Source: Candidatus Mcinerneyibacteriota bacterium (GTDB lineage: Bacteria > AUK180 > JAQVHJ01). Taken from it: DNA of 12,411 nt. Below the pieces are notes generated by a model. The model was not told the DNA's origin. It saw only the letters and a program-made list of their open reading frames with translations, and did not search any database. Made by a program: the position numbers and the translations under genes. Location of the stretch: NCBI GenBank assembly GCA_030630935.1, contig DAOVMD010000040.1, positions 1 through 12,411 on the forward strand, given 5' to 3'. This document shows positions 6,127 to 12,411 of the stretch, piece after piece. Positions within the stretch are counted from its first letter, which is position 1. The number at the start of each line of letters is the position of its first letter.

Positions 6127-8442
6127 CTATTTTTGTCTCAAATCTTCCAAGTTCTGGTCAAAAAATGCTAAGTTATTCTTTGTAAGTATCCAAACTCCAT
6201 TTCGAACGGGAACAATTCCTTTAATGAGAGTTTTTTCTTTAAATACCTGATATGTTTTCCAAGTTTCATTTTTCCTGTCAAACCTTGAGATATCACCTGT
6301 TAAATTTCCTAACCAAAGATATTTTGGTGAGATCCCGAATTCTGCAAAGCTATCTTTTGCCGGTCCGGAAGAATACTCATCGGCAAGTTTCGAGGTAAGA
6401 TTCAATCTTCTTACACTAATCTCCCGCTCCCAATCTTTTTCCGATAACTCCTTCACTCCAAGAATCCAAATGAAATTATCCATAAAAAATATTTTTCTAA
6501 TAAATGTCATGAGTAAATATGGATCTGAGTATTCCTCCTTTAAATGAAACTCAATCATACCCTTCGAACTGCCAGCCCAAATACTATTTTTAACCAGCAA
6601 TAATGTTGAAAAATCAGTCAGGGTTGTTTGTGTATTCGGGTCTGAATATGAAACCGAGGGATGCCACTTCCGTGTTTTTAGATTATATCTGCTTAATCCA
6701 CCTGAGGTAGCAATCCAGACTGTTCTGTTATTATCTATCATGATGTCTTTAACAATATTACTGCCTAAACCATCTTTATTTGTATATCTGATTTTTTTAC
6801 CGGTTTTGGGATTATAAACTAATAGACCACTGTAAGAACCAATCCAAACATCATTCGCTATCTTCTTAATAACAGGTTTAATTGTGACATCTTCTTTCCC
6901 ATCATAAATTATATGAAGAGATTTTTTCTTTTCATTATAAATTTTAACCGAACCATCAATTGAACAGATATATAGTAAACCATCAATAAATTTAAATGAT
7001 GTTACAGGTTTCGAAGTCTCTAACTCTCTCGCATAAATCTTAAAAGCCTTTTTCTTATCATCATAGTAATAGAATCCCCTATCCGTAGAGAGATAACAAG
7101 TCATTCCGCGTAAACCTACCTGATAGAATTCCTTAACGTCTTTCAAATTGGAAACTTCATAAACCTTCCAGACAATCTTATCCATAACCTGTTTGATCTC
7201 TTCAATATGCGGGCTGGAAGGAAATTTCCTCTGGATATCTCTATAAGTAATGAATGCATTGTGATTATCAAAATTCCTTCTATAAATACTTGCAATATGA
7301 AACATTACATCATCAACAATCTTTGAATTCGGATAATCCTTAATTATTGATTTTAATTCTTCCAGAATTTCCATCTCTTCAGCAGAGTCAATCTTCTTCT
7401 CTATTTTATAAAACCTTTTCAATGGTTCAAAATCATTATCTTCATTATCTATAATAAAAGTTAAAGTCTTCTTGTTTAATTTCATCTCCGGAGATTCCGG
7501 ATACTTTTTATCCAGTGTTAAAAAAAATCCTTTTGCCTTTTCAATATCCGGATCATCTGACTCCAGGTTTAACTTCGCAAGTGAAAGAAGAACTTCCTTT
7601 TCATAAAGGTTATCAGGATATTTTGAAAGAAGTGTCGTTAAATCCTTGACGCTCTTCTCCATCTGACCTAAATGGAAATAGGAGATACCACGGCTGTAAT
7701 ACGACTCAACCGAATATTCATCTGAGAGATTCTTCGTTTCTAAAACCTTCGTAAACCACTTCTCTGCTTCAGAATATTTCTTAAGATCAAAATTCCAAAC
7801 GCCTAATCTTAATATCGCAGTTTCCCTATTTGGAAAACTGGGATGACGTTTGAGTAAACCTTCAAAAAATTCAATCCTAACTTCCTTCCCATGAAGAGAT
7901 TCACCAAGATTCATTGAAACTTCATGCTTGAATTTGAAAGTGGAACCTACGAATATAAATAAAATTAACATAAAGAAAATTATTACAAATTTACTCTGAA
8001 AACCCCATGAACTGAAAATCGCCGATAAATACGCAATCAGGACAATCGGTATCGCAATTGCAAGCACACTGCCCGATAATAGAAAAATCTTTAATCCGGG
8101 CTGTGAAAGCAAGTAACCAAAATTAATTGCCTTCTTATTTAAAAACATTTCAATAATAAAATTAATGAATGGAAGAAGAATTATTAGAACCAATAAAATA
8201 AATGATCCGATAACTACTACTTTTAAAGATTCAAAATACTTAAATTTATCTGCAAGGATAATCTTATAAATCCAAAATATAAGATAAATAATCAGGATTA
8301 GAAATATAGGTATTCCATAAAGCAAATTTGAGTTTTTCAAAACGTTTAACAAGTAGGAAAAATTGAAATTTACAAAGAAACTCAGATAAGCAAAACCTAA
8401 GAAAAGTGAGATAATTACAAAAGTTATAATTTTTTTTAACAT
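6127..8442 (-). CDS. Five-helix membrane protein with TPR region and C-terminal beta-propeller
   Basis: 771 residues, ATG start, GGAGG five bases upstream. Five hydrophobic helices lie at about 5-23, 42-62, 74-98, 117-143 and 151-168. The lysine-rich loop after helix 2 suggests N-in topology, which would place the remaining 600 residues outside the cytoplasm. Residues about 190-425 are TPR-like helical repeats with BamD/YbgF flavour (HPSFPNRETAILRLGVWNF, YPDNLYEKEVLLSLAK, YPNSKIVDDVMFHIASIYR). Residues 437-770 are a beta-propeller of the two-component-regulator type, with blades such as VWIGSYSGLLVYNPKTG (532-548), VWIATSGGLSRYNLKTRKW (575-593), IWAGSSKGMIEF (621-632), LWLGNLTGDISRFD (709-722) and VWILTKNNLAFFD (750-762). 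Such propellers usually front histidine kinases; none is present. A sensing or scaffold role is inferred. It lies upstream of pilB in the same orientation but has separate promoter signals. Confidence 0.85.
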   Translation of the reverse strand: MLKKIITFVIISLFLGFAYLSFFVNFNFSYLLNVLKNSNLLYGIPIFLILIIYLIFWIYKIILADKFKYFESLKVVVIGSFILLVLIILLPFINFIIEMFLNKKAINFGYLLSQPGLKIFLLSGSVLAIAIPIVLIAYLSAIFSSWGFQSKFVIIFFMLILFIFVGSTFKFKHEVSMNLGESLHGKEVRIEFFEGLLKRHPSFPNRETAILRLGVWNFDLKKYSEAEKWFTKVLETKNLSDEYSVESYYSRGISYFHLGQMEKSVKDLTTLLSKYPDNLYEKEVLLSLAKLNLESDDPDIEKAKGFFLTLDKKYPESPEMKLNKKTLTFIIDNEDNDFEPLKRFYKIEKKIDSAEEMEILEELKSIIKDYPNSKIVDDVMFHIASIYRRNFDNHNAFITYRDIQRKFPSSPHIEEIKQVMDKIVWKVYEVSNLKDVKEFYQVGLRGMTCYLSTDRGFYYYDDKKKAFKIYARELETSKPVTSFKFIDGLLYICSIDGSVKIYNEKKKSLHIIYDGKEDVTIKPVIKKIANDVWIGSYSGLLVYNPKTGKKIRYTNKDGLGSNIVKDIMIDNNRTVWIATSGGLSRYNLKTRKWHPSVSYSDPNTQTTLTDFSTLLLVKNSIWAGSSKGMIEFHLKEEYSDPYLLMTFIRKIFFMDNFIWILGVKELSEKDWEREISVRRLNLTSKLADEYSSGPAKDSFAEFGISPKYLWLGNLTGDISRFDRKNETWKTYQVFKEKTLIKGIVPVRNGVWILTKNNLAFFDQNLEDLRQK

Positions 8443-8543: not shown

Positions 8544-8572
8544 TTGACAAATAGCGAAATCTATAGTATATT
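8544..8572 (+). promoter_or_regulatory. Strong sigma70 promoter of the mraZ-led dcw cluster
   Basis: TTGACA (8544-8549), 17 bases, TATATT (8567-8572): eleven of twelve consensus positions with ideal spacing. The start is expected near 8579, giving a long leader of about 128 bases before the mraZ ATG. An A9 tract lies just upstream. The MraZ boxes begin right at the predicted start. Confidence 0.85.
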
Positions 8573-8579
8573 TACCCTA

Positions 8580-8604
8580 GTGGTAAATTGTGGTGAACAG
8601 TGGG
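8580..8604 (+). promoter_or_regulatory. MraZ operator: three GTGGN boxes at 10-bp spacing
   Basis: GTGGT (8580-8584), GTGGT (8590-8594) and GTGGG (8600-8604), each separated by exactly five bases. MraZ proteins are known to bind direct TGGG/GTGG repeats with five-base spacers upstream of mraZ and repress or tune the cluster. The boxes start at the predicted transcription start, so binding would block initiation or early elongation. This predicts autoregulation of mraZ. Confidence 0.75.
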
Positions 8605-8614
8605 AAACTATCCC

Positions 8615-8638
8615 ATGAGCACCAGAATGCTCATTTTT
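8615..8638 (+). terminator. Small terminator-like hairpin in the mraZ leader
   Basis: ATGAGCA (8615-8621) and TGCTCAT (8628-8634) pair perfectly around CCAGAA and run straight into a short T-run (five T, 8634-8638). A neighbouring TGGGA-AACTA-TCCCA stem (8601-8615) overlaps both the third MraZ box and this hairpin's first base. It could attenuate transcription before mraZ, but the stem is only seven pairs and the T-run is short. Confidence 0.4.
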
Positions 8639-8706
8639 CATAGCATGTTGTATTATAACATATATTATAAAAAGAGTCAAGTTAATTAAAACTTTAGGAT
8701 TTAGTT

Positions 8707-9177
8707 ATGTTGATAGGAACATTTAACTACAAGATTGATGCAAAGGGAAGGATTCCAATCCCGGCTCCCTTCAGGGGATACCTCAAGGAGAATTATCCTG
8801 AGGAAGAGCTTGTTCTTGTTGCCGGTATTGGTGATAAATACCTTTATCTTCATCCTATTTCAGCATGGCAAAGATATTCAAGGAAATTAAAGAAGAAATA
8901 CTTTAATGCCCGTTTAAGACAGCTTGACACATTTTTAAATGCTTTTTCGGCTCATGTTTCAATAGATAAACAGGGACGGATACTTATTCCGGAGAATTTG
9001 AAGAAGTTAAGTGAACTCGAGAATGAAGTAGTAATTATAGGGAATCAGAATTGGATTGAGATCTGGTCTGGTAAGAATTGGAAGAAATTCACTGAAGAAT
9101 TCATTAAAAGTACCGAATCCCTTGAAGAGATGGAGAAGATGTTTAGGTCCATTAATATTGAAGATGAAGAAGATTAA
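8707..9177 (+). CDS. mraZ: Transcriptional regulator MraZ
   Basis: 156 residues, slightly longer than the common 140-150. MraZ is a DNA-binding ring-forming protein made of two SpoVT-AbrB-like domains and controls the division and cell-wall cluster. Both signature loops are present: DAKGR at 11-15, followed by IPIPAPFR, and DKQGR at 87-91, followed by ILIPENLKKL. An acidic tail ends the protein (EDEED). The ATG is seven bases after AGGA, and MLIGTFNYKIDAKGR is the classic N-terminus. It leads mraZ-rsmH-ftsL-ftsI, the conserved order. The three GTGGN boxes in its own leader imply autoregulation. Confidence 0.97.
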   Translation: MLIGTFNYKIDAKGRIPIPAPFRGYLKENYPEEELVLVAGIGDKYLYLHPISAWQRYSRKLKKKYFNARLRQLDTFLNAFSAHVSIDKQGRILIPENLKKLSELENEVVIIGNQNWIEIWSGKNWKKFTEEFIKSTESLEEMEKMFRSINIEDEED

Positions 9178-9206
9178 GAATAATAGCTCTTTAATTTATT
9201 TCCTTA

Positions 9207-9312
9207 GGTTACTGGAGATCGGATGTATTTAATTTGAAAATCGCGAAAACCTTTTATAAACCCCGTAGTCGCGGAATTTCAAATACTGAAATACACCTGA
9301 TCTCCAGCAGCC
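9207..9312 (+). ncRNA. Long structured RNA hairpin between mraZ and rsmH (putative cis-element)
   Basis: A 106-base near-continuous stem-loop fills most of the 161-base gap. From the base upward: GGTT (9207-9210) with AGCC (9309-9312); a 1x1 A/C mismatch; CTGGAGATC (9212-9220) with GATCTCCAG (9299-9307); G·U and G-C pairs; an A/C mismatch; TGTATTT (9224-9230) with AAATACA (9289-9295); a 2/5 internal loop; TTTGAAA (9233-9239) with TTTCAAA (9277-9283); then CGCGA (9242-9246) with TCGCG (9269-9273), closing a 22-base loop. No T-run follows, so it is not a standard terminator. It could be a cis-regulatory structure, an RNase processing site, or a MITE-like palindromic insertion. I do not recognise the family. 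Confidence 0.7.
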
Positions 9313-9316
9313 ATTA

Positions 9317-9332
9317 TATAATTTAGTATAAT
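9317..9332 (+). promoter_or_regulatory. Two TATAAT boxes just before rsmH
   Basis: TATAAT occurs at 9317-9322 and again at 9327-9332, only 16 and six bases before the rsmH ATG. No -35 box is found at the right distance. If used, initiation would give a leaderless or nearly leaderless rsmH message. In such AT-rich DNA the boxes may be chance. Confidence 0.25.
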
Positions 9333-9338
9333 AGAAAA

Positions 9339-10244
9339 ATGAAAGAATATACCTCTTCACACTACAGTCACACTCCGGTATTTGCCGAAGAAATCAAGCA
9401 GTTCTTTGAAAAATATACGCATAAGTATATATTTGACTGTACGCTGGGAGAGGGGGGACATAGTGAGTTCTTTTTAGAGAGTTTTTTAACGAATATCTTT
9501 TTAGTTGGTATTGAAAGAGACCCTGTCATCTTTCAAAAGGCGCGAAAGCGGTTGGAGCGATTTCGTGAAAAAGTTGAGTTAATTAATGGTTCTTTCTCAA
9601 GATTAGATGTTTATTTCTCTCGTCTTCATCGACCTGATCCGGTTACCTGTATTCTTTTTGATATAGGTATATCTTCATTTCATGTAGATGAATCCGGGCG
9701 AGGATTTTCCTTTCGTAAGTCTGAGCCATTGGATATGCGTTTTGATCCGAGTGATGGTATAAGTGCATATGAAGTGGTTAACGGTTTCACCAAGGAAGAT
9801 CTTGCAGATATTATTTATGAATATGGAGAGGAGAGGAATTCCCGCCGGATTGCCGATTTAATAGTACGGTCTCGCAAGTCAGGAAAAATTGAGACAAGTT
9901 TAGATCTTGCCGAGATTGTATTAAAGGCGTTTCCCCGAAGGAGATACAACAGGATTCATCCGGCTACGCGAGTATTTCAAGCGCTCAGGATTTATGTAAA
10001 TAATGAGTTGGAGGAATTCAAGTTAGCTCTGGAGAAGTCGGTAGAAATTTTAGGTTCGGGGGGAAGGATAATCGTCATTTCTTACCATTCATTAGAAGAC
10101 AGGATAGTTAAAAGATTTTTCAAATCACTCTCGCCGGAAAATTATACAATTCTAACCAAAAAGCCACTTCGCCCCTCTTTAGAAGAGATAAAGGAAAATA
10201 AAAGATCTCGATCTGCGAAGATTCGAGTACTGGAAAGGAACTAG
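9339..10244 (+). CDS. rsmH: 16S rRNA (cytosine1402-N4)-methyltransferase RsmH (MraW)
   Basis: 301 residues, the family's normal size. It methylates N4 of C1402 in the ribosomal P site using SAM. Signature motifs are in order: HTPVF at 11-15, FDCTLGEGGHS (32-42, SAM site), GIERDP (57-62), FDIGISSFHVD (107-117), RGFSF (121-125), LDMRFD (131-136), HPATRVFQALRIYVNNEL (207-224), SYHSLEDRIVKRFF (248-261) and the closing RSRSAKIRVLER (289-300). Some positions are divergent (FDIGISSFHVD against the usual DLGVSSPQLD) but no key residue is missing. There is no Shine-Dalgarno before the ATG, only ATAGAAAA, unlike its neighbours. The long hairpin ends 26 bases upstream. ftsL follows with no gap. Confidence 0.97.
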   Translation: MKEYTSSHYSHTPVFAEEIKQFFEKYTHKYIFDCTLGEGGHSEFFLESFLTNIFLVGIERDPVIFQKARKRLERFREKVELINGSFSRLDVYFSRLHRPDPVTCILFDIGISSFHVDESGRGFSFRKSEPLDMRFDPSDGISAYEVVNGFTKEDLADIIYEYGEERNSRRIADLIVRSRKSGKIETSLDLAEIVLKAFPRRRYNRIHPATRVFQALRIYVNNELEEFKLALEKSVEILGSGGRIIVISYHSLEDRIVKRFFKSLSPENYTILTKKPLRPSLEEIKENKRSRSAKIRVLERN

Positions 10245-10613
10245 ATGAAAGCAAAGAAGCTGAAAAGGAAGGGCATTGATTTCAGAAGCAGAATCAAGTT
10301 ATTTTTTATTCTGTTTGGTCTATTCTTGATTGTTTTCGTATATGCACACATGCATATAAAAACCTTAAATCTTGGATACAAGTACATCCTATTGCAGAAC
10401 AAGAAATTAGAATTACAGAACAGGAATTATTCTCTTAAGAAGGATCTTGGAAAGAGAATGAATCTTGCGGAAATTGACAGGATTTCGAGTGAAGATTTAG
10501 GTTTAGTATATCCTGACGGGGATAAGATTTACATAATTCGTGCCCCGAAGGCAATCAAGGAAGATGAATTTAAGGAACGTCAAGAGACATTCCAATCCCT
10601 TCTAATTAAGTAA
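10245..10613 (+). CDS. ftsL: FtsL-like septal division protein
   Basis: 122 residues with a basic cytoplasmic N-terminus (KAKKLKRK), one transmembrane helix (about 18-36) and a heptad-like coiled coil (about 44-75). A C-terminal stretch RISSEDLGLVYPDGDKIYII (79-98) follows the typical FtsL pattern of an alpha segment, then a G-L-x-x-P turn and a short strand. FtsL bridges FtsB/FtsQ and the FtsW-FtsI synthase at the septum. The identification rests on topology, that motif and the conserved position between rsmH and ftsI, because FtsL sequences diverge strongly. The ATG follows the rsmH TAG directly and AAAGGA lies five bases upstream, so translation is coupled. Confidence 0.85.
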   Translation: MKAKKLKRKGIDFRSRIKLFFILFGLFLIVFVYAHMHIKTLNLGYKYILLQNKKLELQNRNYSLKKDLGKRMNLAEIDRISSEDLGLVYPDGDKIYIIRAPKAIKEDEFKERQETFQSLLIK

Positions 10614-10641: not shown

Positions 10642-12411
10642 ATGAAGAGAAAGAGCGAAACATCTGTATCTATATTTAAGCGAGCCCGGATAGTGTTAAT
10701 ATTCTTCTTTTTATTATTTTCAATATTGGTAGTCCGGTTAGTACATCTTCAGGTGTTTAATTCCAGCTACTATTTTGAGAAGGCTCAGAACCAAAGTGCC
10801 CGGTTAGTAAAGATTATGCCGGAGCGCGGAGATATTTTTGATAGAAACGGTAAGCTATTAACATTTAATATAAAGTTAAAATCCATATATGCAAATCCGA
10901 ACGAGATTGAAGATGTTTGGAATGCTGCGGAACGGCTCCAACCAGTTCTAAAGCTTCAGTTAGAGGAGATTGCGATGAATCTTGATAAGCAGAAGTGTTT
11001 TGTTTGGATTCAGCGTAAAGTTGACAAGGAGACTGCGGAGAGGATTAAAGGATTAAATATTCAGGGAATAAACTTTCTAAATGAAAATAAACGCATATAC
11101 CTATCTTCAGAGTTATATGCGAACATCATTGGATTTGCGGGTGATGATAATGCCGGTCTTGAGGGTTTAGAGAAGTATTATGATAAGGAGTTGAGTGGAG
11201 AAGAAGGTAAGATAAACCTTTGTTATGACGGGATTCGAAGGTGTTCAAAGATTTTCCAAACCCCTATCGAACCTATTAGAAACGGTAGGAATCTTTATCT
11301 TACGCTTGATACTTCGATTCAATATTTCACATATAAAACAATCAAGAAATATGTAAAGAGATTCCATGCACAGCGCGGAATGGCGATAGTAATGGATCCG
11401 AAGACCGGTGAGATTCTTGCTATGGTAAATTACCCGACATTTGATTCCAACGAGTTTTTCAAGACACCGAAGAAGTATTGGAAGAATTCTTGTATAATAG
11501 ATAGTTACGAACCCGGCTCAACATTCAAAATCATTACTGCAGCTGCCCTGATTGAATCAAACTCAGTAGATTTCAAGAAAAAGATTTATTGTGAAGATGG
11601 TGAATATACTGTTTTAGGGAGGACGATAAAAGATGTCAAGAAATTGAAGTATTTAACTTTCAGGGATATAATAGTGAAATCCAGTAATATTGGAATGGTA
11701 AAGGTCTCCAGGAATCTTGACAGGAAGTTCTTTTCAAAGATTATGATGAAATTTGGTTTTGGTTACAAAACCGAAATTGACTATCCAGGTGAGATTAAAG
11801 GTTTAGTACGTCCTTATAAGGAATGGTCAAAATCCTCTTTACTGGCAATTCCAATCGGTTATGAAATCAGTGTAACTCCCCTTCAGATTGTAACGGCATA
11901 TTGTGCAATTGCAAATGATGGAGTTCTAATGAAACCATTCCTGATATCCAGGATTGAAGATAAAGACAATAATGAAATTGAAACTTTTAATCCGCAAAGA
12001 ATAAGGCAAGTAATATCAAAGAAGACAACAGATACCTTGAAAACGTTCATGGAACTCGTTATAGAAGAAGGAACTGGAAAAGCGGCAAGGATACCCGGTG
12101 TAAAAATCTGCGGCAAGACCGGAACTTCAAGTAAATTCAATAATGAATTGAATCAGTATTCAAAGGAGAAATACCTATCATCCTTTATTGGTTTCTTCCC
12201 CAAGGAAGAACCAAAATACGTAATTGGAGTATTTATTGATGAGCCGCAGAAGTATATTTATGGAAGCGTGGTTGCTGCACCGCCATTTAAAGAGATTGCA
12301 GAATACCTGGTTAATTATGAAAATATCAACTATAAGAGAATTTACCCTAATAATAAAGAAATACCTACTATTGAAAATAACAAGGAGATCACTTCCCTGG
12401 AAGCAGGCTAT
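10642..12411 (+). CDS. ftsI: Septal penicillin-binding protein FtsI (PBP3), 3' end beyond the window
   Basis: Open to the last base with 590 codons and no stop. It is the transpeptidase that cross-links septal peptidoglycan with FtsW. A basic cytoplasmic tail and a single helix at about 17-33 anchor it. The pedestal domain carries ERGDIFDRNG (61-70). The transpeptidase domain begins near RGMAIVMDPKTGEILAMVNYP. Catalytic motifs are complete: S293-T-F-K296 in EPGSTFK, S347-S-N349, and K492-T-G494 in CGKTGTSS. ATG at 10642 is seven bases after AGGA, 28 bases after the ftsL stop. A C-terminal PASTA domain, or none, cannot be judged from this window. It presumably continues into murE, murF and so on. 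Confidence 0.95.
   Translation, partial: MKRKSETSVSIFKRARIVLIFFFLLFSILVVRLVHLQVFNSSYYFEKAQNQSARLVKIMPERGDIFDRNGKLLTFNIKLKSIYANPNEIEDVWNAAERLQPVLKLQLEEIAMNLDKQKCFVWIQRKVDKETAERIKGLNIQGINFLNENKRIYLSSELYANIIGFAGDDNAGLEGLEKYYDKELSGEEGKINLCYDGIRRCSKIFQTPIEPIRNGRNLYLTLDTSIQYFTYKTIKKYVKRFHAQRGMAIVMDPKTGEILAMVNYPTFDSNEFFKTPKKYWKNSCIIDSYEPGSTFKIITAAALIESNSVDFKKKIYCEDGEYTVLGRTIKDVKKLKYLTFRDIIVKSSNIGMVKVSRNLDRKFFSKIMMKFGFGYKTEIDYPGEIKGLVRPYKEWSKSSLLAIPIGYEISVTPLQIVTAYCAIANDGVLMKPFLISRIEDKDNNEIETFNPQRIRQVISKKTTDTLKTFMELVIEEGTGKAARIPGVKICGKTGTSSKFNNELNQYSKEKYLSSFIGFFPKEEPKYVIGVFIDEPQKYIYGSVVAAPPFKEIAEYLVNYENINYKRIYPNNKEIPTIENNKEITSLEAGY

Follow-up and report, generated by a model that had tools for sequence, protein, structure and literature searches.

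The window, meaning the whole 12,411-nucleotide stretch of contig DAOVMD010000040.1 that was analysed, carries mraZ, rsmH and two further genes of a division-gene cluster on its forward strand. MraZ ends at 9177 and the RsmH ATG lies at 9339, leaving a gap of 161 nt (9178–9338). Most of this gap is taken up by a predicted hairpin, separated from the MraZ stop by 29 nt and from the RsmH ATG by 26 nt. The features discussed below include comparisons with one relative, G001 (JAQVHJ010000320.1), which belongs to a different genus of the same family.

8707–9177, + strand: mraZ (PF02381, E 8e-28)
9206–9231, + strand: 5' basal arm of the hairpin, 26 nt, AGGTTACTGGAGATCGGATGTATTTA; identical in G001 and among the longest exact runs shared with it
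9207–9312, + strand (sense strand of the mraZ–rsmH transcript): hairpin, a 106-nt rod with small internal loops; minimum free energy (MFE) −42 to −44.5, z −6 to −8
9213–9237, + strand: GGAG-N5-ATG in the 5' arm (9213–9225) with a four-codon mini-ORF, MYLI (9223–9237); a possible buried start site
9232–9285, + strand: apical part of the hairpin: an 8-pair stem, a 6-pair stem and a loop that varies
9291–9312, + strand: 3' basal arm of the hairpin, 22 nt, ATACACCTGATCTCCAGCAGCC; identical in G001 and among the longest exact runs shared with it
9313–9338, + strand: A/U-rich stretch before the RsmH start, lacking a Shine-Dalgarno sequence; the G001 equivalent is likewise A/U-rich and lacks one
9339–10244, + strand: rsmH (mraW) (PF01795, E 5e-99)
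10245–10613, + strand: small protein in the ftsL position, placed by position and length; no Pfam match
10642–12411, + strand: division penicillin-binding protein of the ftsI/pbpB type (PF00905, PF03717), truncated by the contig end

The first-pass annotation had described rsmH as lacking a Shine-Dalgarno sequence, which is borne out both here and in G001; such a sequence is present at the G001 mraZ and at the window's gene in the ftsL position. A leaderless rsmH start from the TATAAT at 9327–9332 was rejected, as this motif has no −35 element and is not kept in G001. On the minus strand at 8652–8680, a little upstream of the ATG of mraZ and pointing away from it, lies a consensus promoter (TTGACT-17-TATAAT with TG) that would serve a TPR-domain gene at 6127–8442; read by eye, G001 keeps this divergent promoter as TTGACA-17-TATAAT (L003 1–83).

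Fold and stability of the hairpin

The predicted fold of 9207–9312 is a single rod of five stems with 4, 11, 7, 8 and 6 pairs: GGUU/AGCC (4 pairs, one of them G-U); CUGGAGAUCGG/CUGAUCUCCAG (11 pairs, nine consecutive Watson-Crick pairs followed by G-U and G-C); UGUAUUU/AAAUACA (7 pairs); AUUUGAAA/UUUCAAAU (8 pairs); and UCGCGA/UCGCGG (6 pairs, one a wobble). Between the stems lie small internal loops and two A.C mismatches, and the total of 36 pairs divides into a basal stem of 22 and an apical stem of 14. An earlier count of the arm pairs as 4, 9, 7, 7 and 5, made from the letters alone, was nearly right, except that the four include a wobble and the fourth arm has 8.

The 161-nt gap folds with an MFE of −44.5, against a mean of −22.3 for shuffled sequences (z −6.2), and none of 200 dinucleotide shuffles equalled it. 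The hairpin alone reaches about −42 kcal/mol, with z −8.0 against dinucleotide shuffles. These values uphold the original description of a near-continuous hairpin far beyond chance. When 110-nt stretches were scanned in 12-nt steps over 20 contigs of the same genome (134.6 kb), few others folded equally well, and those inspected include other palindromes. One strong intergenic palindrome of this genome (L098 2990–3320, GTAGGGGCG..CGCCCCTAC) resembles a dispersed repeat, and another contig with a comparably strong fold carries an Rfam match to the Acido-Lenti-1 RNA (L106 3396–3441, minus strand).

Conservation between two genera and wider distribution

The family comparison consists of two sequences, the window and G001, whose contig has a coverage of about 2x, going by its name. 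The two are well diverged: MraZ is 68% and RsmH 63% identical in amino acids, and fourfold-degenerate sites are 39–47% identical. G001 carries this hairpin too, in the orthologous position (L003 586–693), and its separately computed MFE fold has the same architecture. The first-pass annotation had proposed looking for the stem in close relatives with the same gene order, and in G001, the one close relative, it is present. The basal arms are identical over 26 nt (5') and 22 nt (3'), two A.C mismatches and two G-U pairs included, and are the second and third longest exact runs common to both loci. The rest of the gap has diverged, and conservation stops at the hairpin base. The longest run, of 31 nt, lies within rsmH at 9445–9475 and encodes a GEGGHSEFF motif (GGGAGAGGGGGGACAT...); all of its third positions are kept, although only about half are identical elsewhere.

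Imposing the window's pairing on G001 keeps 32 of the 36 pairs. Pairs that do not vary at all number 23 of 36, split between the basal stem (20 of 22) and the apical stem (3 of 14). The apical stem has 15 substitutions in G001, yet 12 of its 14 pairs are kept: four pairs are altered in both partners and five in one partner without loss of pairing, and two pairs were lost. With the pairing in register 94% of cells are paired, falling to 31–43% when it is slid by 1–3 columns. As many pairs are kept in 10% of trials under a strict permutation of the same substitutions (0.10) and in 0.5% under a looser null (0.005), and shuffling reproduced the observed pair counts in 27 of 500 cases; with only two sequences, the pattern is suggestive of covariation rather than proof of it.

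The apical changes also discriminate between strands. On the plus strand G001 keeps 12 of 14 apical pairs, compared with 8 of 14 on the minus strand, since four of the kept pairs are plus-strand G-U wobbles that would turn into A.C mismatches on the other; the minus-strand fold of G001 loses the apical stem. The basal stem pairs as well on one strand as on the other and does not discriminate. Because the apical wobbles of G001 pair on the plus strand only, the comparison speaks more for an RNA of the mRNA strand than for a site in DNA. Judged from this alignment, conservation of the hairpin structure between the two genera is well supported, and the identical basal arms together with the largely compensated apical changes support a conserved role at the RNA level.

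Beyond these two genomes, the hairpin appears to be restricted in distribution. In five genomes of the same class but another family (G002–G006), mraZ directly adjoins rsmH, and both the gap and the hairpin are absent. A search of GTDB species genomes with a MraZ alignment recovered only G001 and distant Firmicutes/Bacilli, and covariance-model searches of up to 386 genomes gave nothing else convincing. G241, one of the 386 genomes searched, gave a match at E 0.009 per genome; it falls within an antisense coding frame and was set aside as chance. The mraZ–rsmH gaps of about 30 other genomes held no comparable conserved hairpin; one of them (L007) contains a different large palindrome. A link to phages was also rejected: a loose two-arm pattern gave 26 matches on viral contigs, which were not inspected singly, and a stricter pattern gave none.

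We found one copy of the hairpin in its own genome (80% complete) and one in G001 (72% complete), and searches of these two incomplete assemblies returned no second copy in either. The first-pass annotation had warned that many identical copies elsewhere in the genome would mark a generic palindromic repeat; none was found. No Rfam family exceeded its gathering cut-off on the hairpin, and relaxing the threshold brought up only chance matches to eukaryotic miRNA-like rods and the like. A misread SRP RNA or 6S RNA was ruled out, both RNAs having been located elsewhere in the same genome. Neither Rfam nor the literature searched contained a structured RNA between mraZ and rsmH, in agreement with the initial statement that no RNA described at this position was known.

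Candidate roles of the element

The hairpin is probably an undescribed control or processing element of the division-gene cluster. The reading we favour, tentatively and at somewhat under an even chance, is that the polycistronic mRNA contains here a structured RNA that acts in cis, is restricted to the family and is read in the direction from mraZ to rsmH; at this site RNase III or an RNA-binding protein would process or stabilize the transcript. The hairpin would form between the MraZ stop and the RsmH start, at a distance from the ribosomes of both genes, and would be recognized by a double-strand-binding factor, for which RNase III is the simplest candidate. Either RNase III would cut the mRNA at the hairpin or the stem would shield the mRNA there, giving the MraZ and RsmH-FtsL-PBP messages separate stabilities and ratios and so setting MraZ:RsmH stoichiometry; recognition would take place at the invariant base, with the variable tip serving as a spacer stem. 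Both genomes encode RNase III (TIGR02191, 240.5 bits here and 239.8 in G001, above the cut-off), and the hairpin offers the stem of at least two helical turns between co-oriented genes expected of an RNase III-type element (22 basal and 14 apical pairs). RNase III would naturally accept an intercistronic stem of such length as a substrate. In E. coli, excess MraZ is harmful and the harm is relieved by RsmH (MraW), so the MraZ:RsmH ratio would be worth controlling. RNase III is only weakly sequence-specific and would therefore, by itself, leave the invariant arms unexplained; given these arms, a dedicated protein or a target in trans may be involved.

Since the invariant arms exceed what RNase III needs, the main rival is a specific regulatory protein or ligand that binds the hairpin without cleavage and exerts autogenous control over rsmH or the whole cluster, which we consider possible though on balance unlikely. 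The letter-for-letter identity of both basal arms, down to the A.C mismatches and G-U pairs, suggests specific recognition, and RsmH lacks a Shine-Dalgarno sequence in both genomes. However, the hairpin stops 26 nt before the RsmH start without overlapping it, inspection short of a systematic search revealed no alternative fold in which the start is hidden, and nothing in Rfam matches. A bolder version seems unlikely: an undescribed class of RNA element whose double-stranded stem, specific in sequence and placed between mraZ and rsmH, would be the target of a dedicated RNA-binding factor tuning the MraZ:RsmH ratio. Conserved arms could also belong to a stable small RNA cut from the mRNA and acting in trans through them, and a small RNA derived from a dcw leader exists elsewhere (UpsM; PMC5089854). 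We regard this as improbable, as a strong stem keeps the arms paired rather than exposed as single-stranded seeds, the loop is the usual seed and yet is the variable part here, and the genome holds no near-match to the arms beyond chance. A small ORF, with the stem gating its translation or coupling, would account for the Shine-Dalgarno sequence, ATG and two further codons found within the invariant arm of both genomes. This is very improbable indeed: the ATG opens 4 codons in the window but 34 in G001, the peptide (MYLI in the window) is not conserved, and the 3' arm is conserved just as much.

The initial description had noted the missing T-run and discounted an ordinary terminator, and the window's tail, AUUAUAUAAUUU, indeed has none. 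A Rho-independent terminator, in which a T-run directly follows a GC-rich stem, was rejected for want of a T-run after 9312 (G001: CTTATTTTC). The length of the hairpin, and in G001 the CTTATTTTC that follows it, would suit an attenuator or weak terminator lowering expression downstream of mraZ, but the window's tail is ATTATATAATTT, without a T-run, and terminator calling found none in its mraZ–rsmH gap, so we give this reading a slim chance. A DNA-level site (an inverted binding site, a cruciform, or a mobile-element remnant of the MITE, REP or attC-like kind) is quite improbable too. The arms are palindromic and the genome has other strong palindromes (for example L098 3025–3150), but the hairpin is single-copy, occupies the orthologous position in two genera, and has apical changes that preserve pairing through wobbles working on the plus strand only. 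Among the roles first suggested for the hairpin (RNase III processing, a site for a small RNA or ribosomal protein, or a MITE-like insertion), an RNA-level role is supported by the conserved arms and largely compensated tip. The MITE-like insertion fails, as neither of the two incomplete assemblies yielded a second copy and the site is orthologous in two genera; with conservation stopping at the hairpin base as well, a MITE or dispersed palindrome was ruled out.

If the favoured reading of a processed or stabilized intercistronic RNA is right, the hairpin would exert post-transcriptional control at the joint between the regulator (MraZ) and the first enzyme (RsmH) of an operon that ranks among the most conserved in bacteria. 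Were a dedicated factor involved, it would link the regulator of cluster transcription to ribosome methylation and septum synthesis. The reach of these proposals is modest for now, as they concern one little-sampled family and a mechanism that we infer.

Comparison with described systems

REP/BIME and MITE elements are also imperfect intergenic palindromes, but they occur in many copies, whereas this hairpin is present once per genome and occupies orthologous sites in two genera. Within the dcw cluster, the closest described RNA that we found is UpsM, a small RNA from the extended dcw leader of Rhodobacteraceae, which lies upstream of mraZ, ends in a Rho-independent terminator and is cut by RNase E (PMC5089854). 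Both are family-restricted structured RNAs in the dcw cluster (PMC5089854), but they are unrelated: UpsM lies upstream of mraZ and has a terminator, whereas the hairpin lies downstream and has no terminator in the window. We accordingly rejected a leader small RNA of the UpsM type, which would be located upstream of mraZ with an internal terminator. Separately from the hairpin, the region upstream of mraZ at 8544–8634 contains a promoter-like site (TTGACA-17-TATATT) followed by a terminator-like stem (8615–8634) and TTTTC, a possible leader attenuator with a layout reminiscent of UpsM.

The rpsO-pnp intergenic hairpin, which is cut by RNase III and controls operon expression in E. coli and Streptomyces coelicolor (PMC10126417), is likewise a long intercistronic hairpin with internal loops, located between two ORFs of an operon mRNA (PMC10126417), and it provides a precedent for the processing proposed here. 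It differs in lying between other genes, with no known sequence relation to the mraZ–rsmH hairpin; in the latter, cleavage is a proposal and the base is invariant in sequence between genera. We see the mraZ–rsmH element as a new case of an intercistronic mRNA hairpin, restricted to one family.
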